Assembly (NCBI GenBank): GCA_026392825.1
Contig: JAPLBF010000019.1
Coordinates: forward strand, 1-35,585
Direction of reading: 5' to 3'
DNA: 35,585 nucleotides
Origin: Actinomycetota bacterium
Lineage (GTDB): Bacteria > Actinomycetota > Actinomycetes > Nanopelagicales > Nanopelagicaceae
Shown: positions 1,591 to 9,226 of the stretch, piece by piece
Numbering within the stretch: the stretch's first letter is position 1
Layout of the letters: the number at the start of each line of letters is the position of its first letter
Notes under the pieces: model-generated
What the model was told of the DNA's origin: nothing
What the model saw: the letters and a program-made list of their open reading frames with translations, nothing else
The model's database searches: none
Position numbers and translations under genes: made by a program

Positions 1591-2409
1591 TTAGTTAAAG
1601 GTATTTTCGGTGCCAGGGAAAGTTCCCCCACGCACTTCGGCGGCAAATTCTTGCACCGCACCTGTGATCTCCTGGCGCAAGTTGCGATATGCCTTCGCCA
1701 ATTTCGGTGGCTTGGCAGTTAACCCAACTAAATCCGTCCAAACCAAAATCTGTGCATCGCAATTAACACCGGCTCCAATTCCGACAGTCGGAATAGAAAG
1801 CGCCGCAGTAATTCGGGCAGCAAGTTCGGCAGGAACTAACTCCAAAACAATGGCAAAAGCGCCAGCCTTTTCCAGGGCAAGAGCCGCCTCCAAAATGGCA
1901 TCACCATCATTGCGACCCTGCACCCGATATCCACCAAGTTGATGAAGTGATTGCGGGGTAAGGCCGAGATGGCCCATCACTGGGATTCCGGCGGCGGTCA
2001 GTTTTTCAACGGTTGCAATGTGGGCGCCTTCTAATTTCACGGCCATCGCCCCGGCCTCTTTAAAGAAGCGAGTTGAAGTTGCCAGCGCTTGCTCCGGTGA
2101 ATTTTCGTACGAACCAAAGGGGAGATCAGCGATCACCATGGCGCGCTTTGATGCGCGAACAACGGCGCGGGTAAGAGGCATTAATTCATCGACAGTTACG
2201 GCGATGGTGTTTTCACCGCCCAGGAAATTATTGCCTGCGCTATCGCCAACTAAAAGGACGGGGATGCCGGCTTGATCAAATATCTCAGCGGTCATCTGCT
2301 CGTAAGAAGTAAGCGCCGCCCATTTTTCGCCAGCGACTTTTGCTGCCTTGAGATCGACAATGGTTACGCGACGATGGGCCGCGCCGCCATAAAGGGTCGT
2401 TGTACTCAT
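1591..2409 (-). CDS. panB: 3-Methyl-2-oxobutanoate hydroxymethyltransferase
   Basis: PanB (272 aa, the usual length) transfers a hydroxymethyl group from 5,10-methylene-tetrahydrofolate to 2-oxoisovalerate, giving ketopantoate, the first step of pantothenate and CoA synthesis, in the cytoplasm. The sequence shows the family motifs: TSYEQMTAEIFDQAG near residue 34, the Mg-binding aspartates D56 (in VGDSAGN) and D95 (in ADLPFGSY), K125 in AVKLEG, GHLGLTPQS at 146-154 and the catalytic glutamate E190 in VLELVP. The ATG is preceded by a strong Shine-Dalgarno sequence, GGAGGAAC, two bases away. It is divergent from nadE across 89 bases. No panC or panD is in the window. Confidence 0.96.
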   Translation of the reverse strand: MSTTTLYGGAAHRRVTIVDLKAAKVAGEKWAALTSYEQMTAEIFDQAGIPVLLVGDSAGNNFLGGENTIAVTVDELMPLTRAVVRASKRAMVIADLPFGSYENSPEQALATSTRFFKEAGAMAVKLEGAHIATVEKLTAAGIPVMGHLGLTPQSLHQLGGYRVQGRNDGDAILEAALALEKAGAFAIVLELVPAELAARITAALSIPTVGIGAGVNCDAQILVWTDLVGLTAKPPKLAKAYRNLRQEITGAVQEFAAEVRGGTFPGTENTFN

Positions 2410-2473: not shown

Positions 2474-2493
2474 AAGAGTAATCCATTACTCTT
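2474..2493. promoter_or_regulatory. Palindrome with embedded -10 box, nadE promoter/operator
   Basis: AAGAGTAATCCATTACTCTT is a perfect 9-2-9 inverted repeat ending five bases before the nadE ATG. The hexamer TACTCT (2487-2492) in its right arm sits exactly 6 nt from the ATG, matching the TANNNT-N6-ATG arrangement seen at many genes in this window, so it is probably the -10 box of a leaderless promoter. A protein bound to the palindrome would block that promoter. A symmetric TACTCT also faces panB, whose ATG lies about 65 bases away. Confidence 0.55.
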
Positions 2494-2498
2494 GAAGT

Positions 2499-4169
2499 AT
2501 GAAGTTGCGCATAGCGCTCGCGCAGGTCAACCCGACCGTAGGTGACCTGGCGGCCAATGCTGCGCTGGTGCGTCAGAACGTTGCCGCTGCGCAATCCGCG
2601 GGTGCACACATCGTCGTCTTTCCCGAGATGGTTTTAACTGGATACCCAGTAGAAGATTTAGCGCTGCGGCCATCATTTCAAAGCGCCAGCCAAGGTGCGA
2701 TTGCTGAACTGGCCAGTGAGTTAAACGGTGAAATCGTCGCAATCGTTGGCTATCTAGATCAAGTAAATGGTGCGCCTCAAAATATGGTTGCGGTCATTTC
2801 TGGTGGCGAGATCAAAGCGCGTTATGCCAAGTGCCATCTGCCGAATTACGGCGTATTTGATGAGTACCGCAATTTTGTGCCGGGGGATAAGACCTTGGTG
2901 GTTCGCATCCACGGCGTTGATGTCGGCATTGCAATTTGTGAAGACCTTTGGATCGATGGCGGAATCACTGCGCAATTAGCCGCCCGCAAACCTGGCTTAA
3001 TTATTGTTCCGAACGGGTCTCCATATGAACGCGCTAAAGATGATGTGCGATTGGCTCTGGTTACCAAGCGCGCTCGCCAAGCCGCGGCCCCACTTGTCTA
3101 TGTAAATATGACTGGCGGCCAAGATGATCTGGTCTTTGATGGCGACAGCATTGTTGTCGATAAGGAAGGTGCAGTCATTGCGCGCTCCCCACAATTTGCC
3201 GATGATTTAAGAGTTGTTGATATTGATGTTGCAACTCAAACCAGCGAGCCCGATGTCGTTATCTCCGCCGAAGCCGCAGCGATTGCGCAGCCTTTAACTC
3301 CTGAAATTGCGCCGGGGCTAAATGATCTAGAAGAGATCTGGCAGGCGCTGGTAATTGGTTTACGAGATTACGTGGAAAAGAATGGTTTCCGTAGCGTCGT
3401 AGTTGGCTTATCTGGTGGAATCGATTCGGCGTTGGTTGCTGCAATTGCGATCGATGCCTTGGGTGCTAAGCGGGTAAATGGCGTTGCCATGCCAAGTAAA
3501 TATTCTTCGGATCATTCGATTTCAGATGCACAGGCTTTGGCCGATGCCACGGGGATTCATTTTCGAACCGTCGCAATTGCGCCGATGGTCGATGCCTACA
3601 TGAACAACTTGGTTTTAAAGGGTTTAGCCGAAGAGAATTTGCAAGCGCGCGTGCGTGGCACAACTCTGATGGGGATTTCTAATCAAGAAGGACATCTCGT
3701 TTTAGCAACTGGCAATAAGTCAGAGCTTGCCGTTGGTTATTCAACTTTGTACGGCGATGCAGTCGGTGGCTTTGCTCCGATAAAGGATATTTACAAGACT
3801 GATGTTTGGGCGCTGGCACGTTGGCGAAATGAGGTTGCGGGTAAACGCGGTGAGGCTGCACCGATTCCAGCTAACTCAATTGAGAAAGAACCAAGTGCCG
3901 AACTGCGCCCCGACCAGAAAGATTCAGATTCACTTCCCGATTACTTATTACTCGATCGAGTGTTAACGGCTTACGTTGATGACGATCAGGGGTCGACCGA
4001 GTTAATTGCCGCGGGCTTTGATGAGGCGTTGGTCCGTAGAGTGATCGCAATGGTCGATAAGGCTGAGTACAAGCGGCGCCAATATCCGCCGGGCACAAAG
4101 GTTTCCAAGCGTGCTTTCGGTAAGGATCGACGCTTGCCAATGACTAGTAGATGGCAAGAAGGCATTTAA
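2499..4169 (+). CDS. nadE: Glutamine-dependent NAD+ synthetase
   Basis: A 556-residue two-domain NadE. It converts deamido-NAD to NAD with ATP, taking ammonia from glutamine. The N-terminal nitrilase/CN-hydrolase amidase domain (about 1-260) has the Glu-Lys-Cys triad E43 (FPEMVLTGYP), K111 (YAKCHLPNYG) and C147 (AICEDLW). The C-terminal synthetase domain (about 280-556) has the PP-loop SGGIDS at 305-310 and the later conserved block KSELAVGYSTLYGDAVGG. Both halves look complete, so it should use glutamine directly, as in mycobacteria. The ATG chosen is 6 nt after a TACTCT -10 candidate that lies within a palindrome. Nitrogen context follows: glnA begins 56 bases downstream. Confidence 0.96.
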   Translation: MKLRIALAQVNPTVGDLAANAALVRQNVAAAQSAGAHIVVFPEMVLTGYPVEDLALRPSFQSASQGAIAELASELNGEIVAIVGYLDQVNGAPQNMVAVISGGEIKARYAKCHLPNYGVFDEYRNFVPGDKTLVVRIHGVDVGIAICEDLWIDGGITAQLAARKPGLIIVPNGSPYERAKDDVRLALVTKRARQAAAPLVYVNMTGGQDDLVFDGDSIVVDKEGAVIARSPQFADDLRVVDIDVATQTSEPDVVISAEAAAIAQPLTPEIAPGLNDLEEIWQALVIGLRDYVEKNGFRSVVVGLSGGIDSALVAAIAIDALGAKRVNGVAMPSKYSSDHSISDAQALADATGIHFRTVAIAPMVDAYMNNLVLKGLAEENLQARVRGTTLMGISNQEGHLVLATGNKSELAVGYSTLYGDAVGGFAPIKDIYKTDVWALARWRNEVAGKRGEAAPIPANSIEKEPSAELRPDQKDSDSLPDYLLLDRVLTAYVDDDQGSTELIAAGFDEALVRRVIAMVDKAEYKRRQYPPGTKVSKRAFGKDRRLPMTSRWQEGI

Positions 4170-4225
4170 CACAGCCGTAACTTGGCCTTGGCAAGATGTG
4201 GGCTATGTCCGCCAACGATTCACAG

Positions 4226-5521
4226 ATGAGCAAGCAGCAGGAGTTTGTGCTGCGCACAATCGAAGAGCGCAATATTCGTTTTATCCGGTTGTGGTTTACC
4301 GATGTTTTGGGTTATTTAAAATCTGTTGCGATCGCACCAGCTGAATTAGTAAATGCCTTTGAAGAAGGTATCGGTTTTGATGGATCTGCAATTGAAGGAT
4401 TTGCGCGAGTTACTGAATCAGATATGTTGGCAAAGCCAGATCCCGCAACATTTTCAATTTTGCCTTGGCGCACTGAATCACCAGGTGCAGCGCGTATGTT
4501 CTGCGATATCACCATGCCAGATGGATCTCCATCGCATGCCGATCCACGCAATGTTCTGCGTCGCACGTTAAATAAGGCGGCGCAGATGGGTTACACCTGT
4601 TACACACACCCTGAGATTGAATTCTTCTTATTTAAATCCAATCCAGTAAAGGGTGAACAACCAATCCCAGTTGATCAAGGCGGCTACTTTGATCACACAC
4701 CAGCGGTTGTGGGCCATGACTTCCGTCGCCAAGCGATCACGATGCTGGAAGCAATGGGAATCTCAGTTGAATTTAGCCATCACGAAGGCGCGCCTGGTCA
4801 GCAAGAAATCGATCTGCGTTATGCCGATGCTTTAAGCACCGCAGATAACATCATGACTTTCCGCCACGTGATTAAGGAAGTTGCCCTCGAACAAGGTTTC
4901 TACGCCTCATTTATGCCAAAGCCATTTACCGATCATCCTGGCAGCGGAATGCATACCCACGTCTCGCTCTTTGAAGGCGAGAAAAATGCTTTCTATGATG
5001 CATCGGCGGAATTTAATTTATCGAAAGTCGCACGTTCATTTATCGCAGGAATCTTGAAGCACTCATCTGAAATAACTGCGGTCACAAATCAGTGGGTCAA
5101 TTCTTATAAGCGTTTGCAAGGCGGGGGAGAAGCGCCATCGCTGATTAGTTGGGGCCACAACAATCGCAGTGCTTTGGTGCGTATTCCGATGTATAAACCA
5201 AATAAAGAGAATTCGACTCGTATCGAATTTCGTTCCCCAGATTCTGCCTGCAATCCTTATTTGGCCTACGCGGTTATGTTGGCTGCTGGGCTTAAAGGTA
5301 TTGAAGAAAAGTACGAGTTAGTTGATAACCCCGCTGTTCCTGCTTCCTTGCCGGCCAATCTAAATGAAGCGATCGCGGTTATGGAAAAAAGCGAACTGGT
5401 TCGTGAGACTTTGGGCGAGCATGTCTTCGAATACGTTCTGCGCAATAAGCGCGCTGAATGGCAGGATTATCGCCGCCAGGTGAGCGCATACGAGCTAGAT
5501 CGTTATTTACCCGTTCTTTAA
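4226..5521 (+). CDS. glnA: Glutamine synthetase, GlnA2-like
   Basis: Glutamine synthetase type I (ATP + glutamate + ammonia to glutamine). The protein aligns closely with my memory of Mycobacterium GlnA2: EFVLRTIEERNIRF at the N-terminus, VLGYLKSVAIAPAEL, IGFDGSAIEGFARV, the metal-binding HPEIEFFLF, SHHEGAPGQQEIDLRYADAL, NQWVNSYKRL, and the NRSALVRIPMY active-site block. In-frame ATGs also exist at 4196 and 4205; I prefer 4226 because homologues begin there and an AACGAT -10-like hexamer lies 6 nt upstream. Compared with GlnA2 it is about 16 residues shorter near the C-terminus, and the NLYDLPPEE loop that carries the adenylylated tyrosine in GlnA1 is absent, so it is unlikely to be controlled by GlnE. 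The heliorhodopsin gene follows after 46 bases. Confidence 0.95.
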   Translation: MSKQQEFVLRTIEERNIRFIRLWFTDVLGYLKSVAIAPAELVNAFEEGIGFDGSAIEGFARVTESDMLAKPDPATFSILPWRTESPGAARMFCDITMPDGSPSHADPRNVLRRTLNKAAQMGYTCYTHPEIEFFLFKSNPVKGEQPIPVDQGGYFDHTPAVVGHDFRRQAITMLEAMGISVEFSHHEGAPGQQEIDLRYADALSTADNIMTFRHVIKEVALEQGFYASFMPKPFTDHPGSGMHTHVSLFEGEKNAFYDASAEFNLSKVARSFIAGILKHSSEITAVTNQWVNSYKRLQGGGEAPSLISWGHNNRSALVRIPMYKPNKENSTRIEFRSPDSACNPYLAYAVMLAAGLKGIEEKYELVDNPAVPASLPANLNEAIAVMEKSELVRETLGEHVFEYVLRNKRAEWQDYRRQVSAYELDRYLPVL

Positions 5522-5555
5522 CCCGCAATAACGCCAGAATTCAACTTTTGGCTGT

Positions 5556-5561
5556 TACTTT
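5556..5561 (+). promoter_or_regulatory. -10 box of putative leaderless heliorhodopsin promoter
   Basis: TACTTT lies exactly 6 nt before the heliorhodopsin ATG, with no Shine-Dalgarno sequence in between. The same hexamer at the same distance precedes the DoxX-Rieske gene at 18634. No convincing -35 element is seen. If real, the rhodopsin gene can be transcribed independently of glnA. Confidence 0.5.
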
Positions 5562-5567
5562 ATTGTT

Positions 5568-6332
5568 ATGACTAAAGAGATCACAGATCGCGGTTTACGC
5601 CGCATCAACTTATTTGCCGGCGTTCTTCACTTTGCACAGATGGTGGCGGTTCTTGCGCTTTCATCTGACTTCACGCTACCAATCACTGCGCGATATATGT
5701 CGGGTCCTCCGGGAAGCACCTACGGCGATCTAATTGTCTTGTACAACGCACCACTTGCAATCGGTGTTGCCATCTTCTTGGGACTTTCATCCCTTGCTCA
5801 TTTTATTGTTATTAGCCCGAAATTCTTTCCGCGATATATCGCAGGCCTTGCCGCCCACCGAAACTTCTTCCGCTGGGTTGAATATTCAATTAGCTCATCG
5901 GTGATGATCGTTTTGATCGCACAAGTAACTGGAATTTCAGAGGTCACTGCGCTGATTTCAATCTTCGGGGTCAACGCTTCCATGATTTTATTTGGCTGGC
6001 TCCAAGAAAAGTATGAAGAGCCAGGTAACGGCGGCTGGATTCCATTTATCTTCGGCTGTATCGCCGGCGTAGTGCCGTGGCTTGCGCTAGTCTTCTATGT
6101 CTTTGCAATTGGCGGTGCTGGTGAAAATAAAGCGCCAACTTTTGTTTACTTCATCGTCTTTACAATTTTCGCACTATTTAACTCATTTGCCCTTGTGCAA
6201 TATCTTCAATACAAGAAGGTCGGCAAGTGGTCTGATTATCTGCGGGGAGAGCGGACTTACATAACGCTATCCCTTGTTGCGAAATCACTACTTGCTTGGC
6301 AGATATTCGCCAATACACTTATTCCAGTTTAA
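5568..6332 (+). CDS. Heliorhodopsin
   Basis: A 254-residue seven-helix retinal protein of the heliorhodopsin family, not a type-1 pump. It closely resembles the original 48C12 heliorhodopsin: helix C has FRWVEYSISSSVMIVLI with the Schiff-base counterion E105, helix G has YITLSLVAKSLLAWQIF with the retinal-binding lysine K239, and H21 and H78 match the histidines near the Schiff base. FGVNASMILFGWLQEKYEE and FNSFALVQYLQYK are further family hallmarks. Heliorhodopsins sit with the N-terminus in the cytoplasm, have slow photocycles and transport no ions by most reports; their function is unsettled. The gene follows glnA by 46 bases and precedes a Gfo/Idh gene by 27 bases. A published study reported binding between an actinobacterial heliorhodopsin and glutamine synthetase, which makes this neighbour notable. 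Confidence 0.97.
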   Translation: MTKEITDRGLRRINLFAGVLHFAQMVAVLALSSDFTLPITARYMSGPPGSTYGDLIVLYNAPLAIGVAIFLGLSSLAHFIVISPKFFPRYIAGLAAHRNFFRWVEYSISSSVMIVLIAQVTGISEVTALISIFGVNASMILFGWLQEKYEEPGNGGWIPFIFGCIAGVVPWLALVFYVFAIGGAGENKAPTFVYFIVFTIFALFNSFALVQYLQYKKVGKWSDYLRGERTYITLSLVAKSLLAWQIFANTLIPV

Positions 6333-6359
6333 ATAATTGATTTAATTTTTGGAGGATAA

Positions 6360-7313
6360 GTGGCACTTCGTTGGGGTTATCTAGGCGCGGGCGGAATCGC
6401 CGACATCATTGCAACTGACTTCGGCCACGCTGGCTTGAAGATCCAAGCCGTTGCAACTCGCGATCTAGCGCGCACCAACGCCTTCGCCGATAAGTTCAAT
6501 ATTCCCAATCGCCATCCAGATTACGCGGCGCTTGTGGCCGATCCCGAAGTAGATGTTATTTACATTTCAACGGTTCAGACCCTGCACCGAGATCACGCAC
6601 TTCTTGCGATCAAGGCCGGCAAGCACGTTCTGCTGGAAAAGCCATTCACCATGAACGCAGCCGATGCCCATGAAATTTATGCTGCGGCAAAACGTAAAAA
6701 TGTATTTGTCATGGAAGCTATGTGGACTCGTTTCTTGCCAACGATGACAGCCGTTTTTGCTGCAATAGAAGCAGATGAAATTGGAACGCCACATTTTGTT
6801 TACGCCGACCACAGCCAATTTTTGCCAATCAAACGAGCACCGCGCCTTTGGAATCGCGAACAAGGCGGCGGCGCACACTATGACCTAGGAATTTATCCCG
6901 TGCATATGGCGATACGCACCCTGGGTATCCCAGATTCGGTAAGTGGAAAATCAATAATGACTGATACCGGCGTTGATTCAGCAACTTCTGCTGTTCTGCA
7001 ATACAACAACGGCAGCCTGGCACTAATTAACTCTTGTATGACTATGGCCGGAACAATCACTGCAGCGATACACGGCACAAAAGGTCGTATCGATATTGAT
7101 GGTTGGTTCTTTGAGCAGACCACTTTCAGTATCTATGACAACCATCATAAATTGGTTCGCAAATATGAAGAAAAAATCCAGGGCCGCGGAATGCAATATC
7201 AGGCAGTGCATGTTGAAGAGTGCATCGCCAAAGGCCTTACCGAAAGCCCAATTTTGAGCCTTGCTGAAACAGTGAAAATAATGGAAGTAATGGAGCAGAT
7301 ACACGTCTTTTAA
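6360..7313 (+). CDS. Gfo/Idh/MocA family oxidoreductase
   Basis: A 317-residue NAD(P)-dependent dehydrogenase. The N-terminal Rossmann fold starts with WGYLGAGGIADIIA (residues 5-18), the EKP motif carrying the catalytic lysine is at 93-95, and GGGAHYDLGIYPVHMA supplies the C-terminal-domain Asp/His region. The order VMEAMWTRFLP after EKP is typical of the dihydrodiol dehydrogenase / aldose oxidoreductase subgroup, so a sugar or polyol is the likely substrate; which one cannot be told. The GTG start is supported by a strong Shine-Dalgarno sequence, GGAGG at 6351-6355. No terminator separates it from heliorhodopsin, so the two may share a transcript. It resembles the gene at 25150. Confidence 0.88.
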   Translation: MALRWGYLGAGGIADIIATDFGHAGLKIQAVATRDLARTNAFADKFNIPNRHPDYAALVADPEVDVIYISTVQTLHRDHALLAIKAGKHVLLEKPFTMNAADAHEIYAAAKRKNVFVMEAMWTRFLPTMTAVFAAIEADEIGTPHFVYADHSQFLPIKRAPRLWNREQGGGAHYDLGIYPVHMAIRTLGIPDSVSGKSIMTDTGVDSATSAVLQYNNGSLALINSCMTMAGTITAAIHGTKGRIDIDGWFFEQTTFSIYDNHHKLVRKYEEKIQGRGMQYQAVHVEECIAKGLTESPILSLAETVKIMEVMEQIHVF

Positions 7314-7331
7314 ACCGGCGTTATCGAATAC

Positions 7332-7361
7332 TTGCTCATACGTAACGCTGCGCGTTACTAT
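7332..7361 (+). promoter_or_regulatory. leuA promoter with operator-like inverted repeat
   Basis: A TTGCTC -35 box (7332-7337) and a TACTAT -10 box (7356-7361) are 18 bases apart. The -10 box lies exactly 6 nt before the leader-peptide ATG at 7368, so the transcript may start on that ATG. The spacer holds a perfect inverted repeat, GTAACGC-TGC-GCGTTAC (7342-7358), which overlaps the first bases of the -10 box and could be an operator. Alternatively the repeat could act as a weak transcription stop for the upstream gene. Confidence 0.6.
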
Positions 7362-7367
7362 TTCACC

Positions 7368-7427
7368 ATGTTGTTAACCATGACACTTCGCAGCCTCCTC
7401 CTTCGCTGCCGTGGCGGGGCCAAGTAA
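7368..7427 (+). CDS. leuL: leuA leader peptide
   Basis: A 19-residue reading frame, MLLTMTLRSLLLRCRGGAK, ending in TAA 71 bases before leuA. Six of the nineteen residues are leucine, with a run of three (CTC CTC CTT, 7395-7403). Such leader peptides upstream of leuA are known from other actinobacteria, where ribosome stalling at leucine codons under leucine shortage alters folding of the leader RNA. A second in-frame ATG at 7380 would give a 15-residue version. There is no Shine-Dalgarno sequence; the -10 box six bases upstream suggests leaderless translation. Confidence 0.8.
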   Translation: MLLTMTLRSLLLRCRGGAK

Positions 7428-7478
7428 CCGGTCCCCTCGCCGCGGGGTTTGTCGCACCGGTAAAACCCGACAAAACCC
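7390..7478 (+). promoter_or_regulatory. leuA attenuator region with competing helices
   Basis: Several mutually exclusive pairings can be drawn. GCAGC 7390-7394 pairs with GCTGC 7405-7409, placing the three consecutive leucine codons in the loop. GGCGGGG 7413-7419 pairs with CCC(T)CGCC 7434-7441. CCCC 7433-7436 pairs with GGGG 7444-7447, closed outside by ACCGGT 7427-7432 and ACCGGT 7456-7461. GGGTTTGTCG 7445-7454 pairs with CGAC-AAAACCC 7468-7478 with one bulged A. The last helix ends just ahead of the leuA Shine-Dalgarno sequence (AGGAG, 7486-7490) and is not followed by a U-run, so control of translation or a non-classical terminator is possible. Confidence 0.6.
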
Positions 7479-7498
7479 AAAAATTAGGAGTTAAGTAA

Positions 7499-9226
<1,728 letters not shown>

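Follow-up and report, generated by a model that had tools for sequence, protein, structure and literature searches.

The function of heliorhodopsins (HeRs) is unsettled, and the pairing of a HeR with a glutamine synthetase (GS) is one of the few functions published for the family. The closest described case is that of Actinobacteria bacterium IMCC26103, for which Cho et al. (2022; PMC9529153) reported binding between HeR and GS and a modest effect of light. Isothermal titration calorimetry (ITC) gave a dissociation constant (Kd) of 100 μM in detergent and of 6 μM in inverted vesicles, an E151Q mutant of HeR bound GS more tightly (Kd 30 versus 100 μM), and the effect of light amounted to 1.1 times for the product, a kcat/Km that went from 8.01 to 12.19, and 1.58 times for the growth t1/2. 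Here, we analyzed a 35,585-nucleotide stretch of DNA from an Actinomycetota bacterium of the Nanopelagicaceae (GenBank assembly GCA_026392825.1, contig JAPLBF010000019.1, positions 1 to 35,585; hereafter the window, meaning this whole stretch; source genome 1.38 Mb in 38 contigs), in which a glutamine-synthetase-like gene, glnA2, is followed by a HeR gene in the same gene order as in IMCC26103. The pairing as such is thus already known in print for that strain, with its gene order, binding and small light effect.

Beyond this strain, a 2024 survey (PMC11109279) lists glutamine synthetase among ten HeR neighbor groups. For the enzyme, the closest described system is GlnA2 of Streptomyces coelicolor (SCO2241), in which Asn264 is changed to Pro238, and which plays no GS role in vivo and acts as a gamma-glutamylpolyamine synthetase (PMC8998196). 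Our literature search found no paper linking heliorhodopsin with GlnA2, nor heliorhodopsin with leaderless. By comparing the locus with those of related genomes, we arrived at the view, to which we assign a probability of roughly 0.6, that glnA2 and HeR are two neighboring, separately expressed genes that were joined by one insertion.

Results

The glnA2 gene (4205..5521, plus strand) encodes a glutamine-synthetase-like ligase that matches Gln-synt_N and Gln-synt_C, lacks the adenylylation loop and carries Ala55 and Pro238, where residues are counted from the internal ATG at 4226, as the published numbering of the IMCC26103 enzyme (AbGS) also is. Among the listed open reading frames (ORFs), candidate starts at 4196, 4205 and 4226 share the end at 5521 on the plus strand, and comparison suggests ATG 4205 as the likelier start. 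After a gap of 46 bases follows an intact HeR (5568..6332, plus strand; 254 amino acids; NCBIfam HeR, 325.8 bits), which matches PF18761 at 312 bits (cut-off 26.7) over positions 1-242 of the 242 in the profile, and which has the counterion E105, the retinal lysine K239, and K216, K217 and K220 in intracellular loop 3 (ICL3). Directly upstream of glnA2 lies nadE (2499..4169, plus strand), a glutamine-dependent NAD+ synthetase (NCBIfam NF010588, 690.3 bits; Pfam NAD_synthase and the glutamine-using CN_hydrolase). ORFs, profile matches and residues therefore agree with the initial annotation of this DNA, which had described a GlnA2-type gene, the 46-base gap, a HeR with its counterion and retinal lysine intact, and a glutamine-using nadE immediately upstream, and the HeR-GS interaction that it mentioned does exist in print (PMC9529153).

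The adjacency of the two genes appears to have arisen once. HeR is present in 185 of the 296 genomes of the order, and among the matches listed we covered 149 HeR loci from 148 genomes, with HeR beside glnA2 at 53, elsewhere at 93, and undecidable at 3. "Elsewhere" denotes loci with no glnA2 in the fetched DNA and more than 600 bases upstream, the 3 shorter loci (1 in the genus of the window, 2 outside it) being excluded, while among the 53 adjacent loci are 6 in which 397-961 bases separate the two genes and 2 in which the glnA2 frame is broken. All adjacent cases belong to the window's genus (53 of 87 decidable loci, against 0 of 59 in other genera), where the nearest ORF upstream of HeR is glnA2 at 50 of the 53 loci and another ORF at 3. 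On a GlnA2 tree of 107 rows, one change separates the 45 adjacent from the 29 non-adjacent rows of the genus, and the 53 adjacent cases therefore count as one event; judging by this tree, the adjacency spread by descent within one genus and not by independent events. We also chose 57 glnA2 loci from genomes in which HeR lies elsewhere, was not found or was not read; leuA follows glnA2 at 55 of these loci and nadE precedes it at 48, and none has HeR beside it. As leuA and nadE are kept beside glnA2 without HeR, the block is older than the HeR insertion. Chance or artefact as the source of the arrangement was rejected, since it recurs in 53 genomes. The initial annotation had proposed testing whether the adjacency is conserved across related genomes more often than expected, and had counted restriction to a few close relatives against a functional pairing. 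Recurrence is what we found, but the restriction also describes much of the picture, namely one genus and a single change, albeit in 53 genomes.

Although the slot was inherited, trees of the flanking genes indicate that HeR has been exchanged in place among species. At least two HeR lineages occupy the glnA2 slot. A tree of panB, nadE, glnA2 and leuA from 44 of the 53 genomes, 10 of these filled to less than half, requires 4 switches between the two HeR types, versus one for the HeR tree. With the core genes, a single clade of carriers of the window-type HeR is rejected (p-AU 2.8e-7, the P value of the approximately unbiased test). On the HeR tree itself (149 rows), the glnA2-adjacent HeRs need 6 changes; one clade for all of them was rejected weakly, with a p-AU of 0.033 for the 53 adjacent HeRs against 45 rows sampled from 85 (8 divergent ones dropped). 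Because this second rejection is weak, the claim of exchange rests on the core-gene tree test. Homologous recombination between the conserved flanks would be enough to produce such exchange, functional retention being the bolder reading.

A further occupant of the block was seen in many relatives (L156-L198 in our locus numbering), which carry cysK and cysE between nadE and glnA2. Counting the 71 genomes of the genus with nadE and glnA2 in view, which leaves out loci without nadE within 3 kb, we found HeR only in 42, cysK only in 25, neither in 4 and both in 0, and we read the failure of cysK-cysE and HeR to occur together as probably a matter of descent. The single-amplified genome AAA278-O22 (L242:6330-6665) was rejected as an adjacent case and not counted, as its HeR frame breaks at ~112 amino acids and other genes follow; that contig is probably chimeric. 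Five public metagenome-assembled genome records (L218, L233, L252, L255 and L267) are titled Bifidobacterium breve or Streptomyces griseus, and their names look wrong, because their glnA2 loci resemble those of this order. Outside the glnA2 slot, the neighbors of HeR (at L072, L108, L123, L102 and others) include a photolyase-related protein, a GSDH dehydrogenase, an S51 peptidase and a PsiE-like protein.

Separate conserved promoter-like elements were found before nadE, glnA2 and HeR. For HeR, the likely leaderless -10 element is TACTTT (5556..5561, plus strand), with its first base 12 before the ATG. TANNNT occurs at -12 or -13 in all 53 glnA2-adjacent HeR genes, 43 of them at exactly 12 (shuffle mean 5.2, maximum 15), in 52 of the 53 when starts were picked by another rule, and in 74 of the 93 HeRs elsewhere (shuffle mean 7.6, maximum 16). 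Shine-Dalgarno-like motifs are rare before HeR (3/53 adjacent, 7/93 elsewhere). This is the pattern expected of a leaderless messenger RNA (mRNA) with its own promoter, and HeR is probably transcribed in that way. Before nadE, the likely leaderless -10 element is TACTCT (2487..2492, plus strand), and TANNNT stands at -13 to -11 in 29 of the 30 HeR-adjacent loci with a readable nadE start.

For glnA2, the corresponding element is a GlnR-box-like site, TTAACACAGCCGTAAC (4166..4181, plus strand), conserved in form and position and fitting the GlnR boxes of S. venezuelae and M. smegmatis tabulated in PMC10704036. Of 103 genomes in the order, 95 have a box of the form [GT]TAAC-N6-GTAA[CT] no more than 120 bases before glnA2 (mean 0.025 and maximum 1 in shuffles), namely 74/75 within the genus and 21/28 outside it, with or without HeR. 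A similar box precedes GlnA1 in two of the three genomes looked at, and in the window genome TTTAC-N6-GTAAC lies 115 bases before the likely GlnA1 start. GlnR is the probable binder of the glnA2 site. Since nadE, glnA2 and HeR show separate conserved elements, the published single-promoter operon would not be needed, although read-through is documented (PMC8612252). Likewise, the shared mRNA for which the initial annotation had proposed transcript mapping would not be required, as each gene has an element of its own, a GlnR-like box for glnA2 and a leaderless -10 for HeR. Between the two genes, a weak hairpin (5533..5552, plus strand) is terminator-like by pattern only, with 4 such patterns in the scanned stretch versus 4.1 expected, not above chance; one relative (G256) has a 13-pair terminator-like hairpin there (5 patterns in the stretch, 2.4 expected). 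Over 3900-7600, scans for sigma-70 promoters and for terminators gave nothing above chance.

The enzyme encoded by glnA2 is probably not the main glutamine synthetase of the cell, and, by its residues, it may not be a true glutamine synthetase. Ser53 and Asn264, the glutamate/ammonium-site residues of canonical GlnA1, are absent from the window protein, which has Ala55 and Pro238; the GlnA1 of two genomes (G255 and G237) reads DGSS and DNGSG at those sites. Of the 163 GlnA2 rows of the order, 152 carry Pro238 and 11 carry Ala at this position, and all 18 rows from outside the order carry the Pro as well (rows were counted, so that some genomes enter twice); the residue is therefore not tied to HeR. 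The window genome carries a separate GlnA1, cut by a contig end (G000:C1:1-755); in two single-contig relatives the GlnA1 is complete, with the Asn and the adenylylation Tyr. A GlnA2-type match was obtained in 69 of 80 chosen genomes, the other 11 having only a GlnA1-type or other match, 3 of them at least 95% complete. Likely GlnA2 orthologues with 71-74% identity occur in Microbispora, Nocardioides and Aeromicrobium, and Pro238 together with a glnE ~1.9 kb downstream of the Aeromicrobium relative suggests orthology to SCO2241. At another locus (L214, G227:C23:1-5000), a third GS-like gene stands beside a 494-codon ORF that resembles, by eye, an amino-acid/polyamine permease.

We found no support for light control as a substitute for GlnE, which the initial annotation had suggested on the grounds that the synthetase lacks the adenylylation loop. 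The absence of the loop itself is correct, as a segment with the Tyr (KDLYEL) that is present in GlnA1 of two related single-contig genomes is deleted from the window GlnA2 in the alignment. It is, however, deleted regardless of the HeR neighborhood: in 43/45 adjacent and 28/29 non-adjacent GlnA2 rows of the genus (the remaining 3 unparsed) and in 21/28 rows from other genera (of the rest, 2 are long and 5 unparsed). The segment is retained in 5/5 outgroup rows (including L275, L286, L287 and L295), with Trp in the position of the Tyr. None of the 25 genomes of the genus that were searched, many of them incomplete, gave a GlnE match; they included that of the window and had HeR beside glnA2, HeR elsewhere or no HeR match. 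GlnE was present in 15 of 16 other genomes of the class, the search having covered the genus and genomes of the class outside the order. As neither GlnE loss nor loop loss follows HeR adjacency, the substitution is not supported. A separate peculiarity is that these 25 genomes gave no GlnE match even though the adenylylation Tyr is still present in the GlnA1 of two single-contig relatives.

The lysines of HeR implicated in GS binding are almost as frequent at a distance from glnA2. E105 and K239 are invariant in 146 HeR rows (53 adjacent, 93 elsewhere). The three lysines named as GS-binding in PMC9529153 are common in both groups, with K216 in 52/53 adjacent versus 88/93 elsewhere, K217 in 52/53 versus 76/93, and K220 in 51/53 versus 87/93. 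This distribution suggests features of the family and not an interface specific to glnA2. The most divergent position is 151, with E in 31/53 adjacent HeRs and in at most 1/93 elsewhere, but the E151Q mutant was the tighter binder of GS (PMC9529153).

Beyond nadE, the conserved block is bounded by panB (1591..2409, minus strand; ketopantoate hydroxymethyltransferase; PF02548, 333.1 bits; NCBIfam PRK00311 and panB), and on the other side by leuA (7499..9226, plus strand; 2-isopropylmalate synthase; NCBIfam PRK03739, 880.8 bits). Upstream of leuA, the ORF of a Leu-rich leader peptide, MLLTMTLRSLLLRCRGGAK (7368..7427, plus strand), is preceded by TACTAT (7356-7361), 12 bases ahead of the ATG, and followed by a stable fold (z -2.5), and the region looks like a leader-peptide attenuator. 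Leu-rich leaders were seen at 16 of 101 leuA loci by a loose rule, with an LLL-x-CR motif in 11 of the 12 listed. A search for structured RNA in 4000-7700 returned no Rfam match at E up to 1.

Discussion

Taken as two neighbors joined by one insertion, the genes would have the following history. The glnA2 gene would be the actinobacterial GlnA2 orthologue, with a nitrogen-control (GlnR-like) promoter of its own; its product, a GS-like ligase, most likely uses another amine in place of ammonia as the partner for glutamate (a polyamine in the case of the one characterized orthologue), the glutamine of the cell being made by the separate GlnA1. HeR, probably a light-sensing membrane protein, would have its own leaderless promoter wherever it is located, in most genomes of the order. 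In one Planktophila lineage, HeR would have landed between glnA2 and leuA of an older block and been inherited there, and the copy in the slot would later have been exchanged among species. The weak published effect of HeR on GS is then probably not the reason for the adjacency. Of the light-to-nitrogen link that the initial annotation proposed, the published interaction stands, but descent within one genus, separate promoter-like elements and an enzyme that is probably not the main glutamine synthetase weaken it.

Several observations weigh against the reading of two separately expressed neighbors. The HeRs located elsewhere in the genus have 20 upstream clusters over 33 loci, in contrast to the stable glnA2 slot, a stability that may reflect selection or merely a position inside a core gene block. 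Strand-specific lake metatranscripts carry HeR together with glnA and nadE (Bulzu et al. 2021; PMC8612252), PMC11109279 predicts a single promoter for these three genes, and 19 of the 93 HeRs elsewhere are without the -10 element. Regarding the glnA2 promoter, the loose box pattern is not enriched in the window genome (13 matches versus 31 in a reversed control), so that the evidence for the box is its conserved position; five Trans_reg_C proteins of the cell are candidates for GlnR itself, and in S. coelicolor binding of GlnR to the glnA2 promoter requires a high amount of the protein or its acetylation, an earlier study having seen no binding. Regarding the enzyme, AbGS partially complements an E. 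coli glnA knockout (PMC9529153), and the NCBIfam model for type I glutamate-ammonia ligase (the GlnA equivalog) accepts the window protein at 443.6 bits against a cut-off of 429.15. Among the matches listed, moreover, a PuuD-like hydrolase was not found in 25 genomes of the genus, the best Peptidase_C26 match of the window genome being partial and at 54.4 bits versus 149-224 bits in 8 genomes outside the order. With that step missing from these matches, the polyamine pathway known elsewhere is not complete here, and we rejected a complete polyamine gamma-glutamylation pathway.

According to the published model, HeR binds GS via the ICL3 lysines and raises glutamine synthesis in the light, the adjacency being a functional operon for light-driven ammonium assimilation. 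We consider this unlikely. The model can call on ITC binding and on light effects on product, kinetics and growth (PMC9529153), on the metatranscripts that join HeR, glnA and nadE (PMC8612252), and on a neighborhood that is stable in 53 genomes. Yet the GS activity of AbGS is very low, with a kcat/Km for glutamate of 5.42 per M per s versus 900-28,000 in other recombinant GSs (PMC9529153), and the loop-mutant data carry large errors (PMC9529153). Further points against the model are that the ICL3 lysines are not specific to adjacent HeRs, that the adjacency history comprises one change, that glnA2 and HeR have separate promoter-like elements, and that a GlnA1 is encoded elsewhere in the genome.

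It is improbable, in our estimate, that HeR regulates its neighbor GlnA2 in a different reaction, the glutamylation of amines in polyamine use, such that light would steer the use of organic nitrogen and not ammonium assimilation. Pro238 and the biochemistry of S. coelicolor GlnA2 (PMC8998196) fit this idea, as do the GlnR-like box before glnA2, the different HeR lineages kept in the same slot, and the predicted import of spermidine and putrescine by acI bacteria (PMC5574706). On the other side stand the PuuD-like enzyme not found in 25 genomes of the genus among the matches listed, the nonspecific ICL3 lysines, and the part of PMC9529153 covered, in which no polyamine assay of AbGS appears. 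We similarly give little credence to the extension that light-dependent control of GlnA2 on an amine substrate is the reason why a HeR of any lineage was kept behind glnA2 through the exchanges.

A functional pair of HeR with the downstream Gfo/Idh/MocA oxidoreductase (6360..7313, plus strand; PF01408, PF22725), translated from the HeR mRNA, is likewise improbable. This gene lies on the same strand, 27 bases after HeR, with GGAGG (6351..6355, plus strand) as its ribosome-binding site; oxidoreductase genes after HeR show a Shine-Dalgarno motif in 15/15 cases and the -10 pattern in 0/15, as expected of a second cistron, which the gene in the window probably is. As the downstream neighbor, however, it occurs in only 15 of the 53 adjacent loci, a leuA-like cluster being next in 25, and at two loci, L219 (a named record) and L188 (from another genus), the oxidoreductase gene stands next to glnA2 with no HeR there. 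A phage origin of glnA2-HeR was rejected, as the phage collection gave no match.

If HeR is paired with a GlnA2 that naturally uses another substrate, then the reaction in which the weak activation was reported was the wrong one, and light-driven ammonium assimilation, as claimed for abundant lake bacteria, needs a retest. The key question becomes whether HeR influences GlnA2 when the enzyme is given its true substrate. More generally, separate promoter-like elements and a history of one change call for caution in inferring HeR partners from gene neighborhoods.

Comparison with known systems

The locus most similar to that of the window is AbHeR-AbGS of IMCC26103 (PMC9529153), which shares the order panB, nadE, GS, HeR, Gfo/Idh/MocA and leuA. 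Judged from the residues that PMC9529153 names for QLL25365 and QLL25366, 35 of 36 agree with the window in letter and number (HeR 28/28, GS 7/8), the difference being AbGS Pro371, which is Val in the window, and the window assembly (G000) is a separate one. The single-promoter model of PMC9529153 places the promoter upstream of nadE, whereas the conserved separate -10 elements point otherwise. The HeR-glnA-nadE transcripts of freshwater Actinobacteria (PMC8612252) contain the same three genes on class 1 transcripts; these were assembled from lake RNA, without mapped start sites in the part of the paper covered. Heliorhodopsin 48C12 belongs to the same family, as the window HeR was matched over residues 8-253 and its closest solved structures are heliorhodopsins, including 48C12. 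The GS encoded near 48C12 shares only 36.64% similarity with AbGS (PMC9529153) and is therefore probably not a GlnA2 orthologue. SCO2241 is, like the window enzyme, GS-like, with Ser53 and Asn264 lost and Pro at 238 in both (PMC8998196), and its promoter has a reported gTnAc motif (PMC8998196), the window glnA2 having a GlnR-like box. It differs in that the loop segment, deleted in the window, is kept with Trp for Tyr in the 5 outgroup GlnA2 proteins, and in that the window's genus is without a PuuD-like match among the matches listed.

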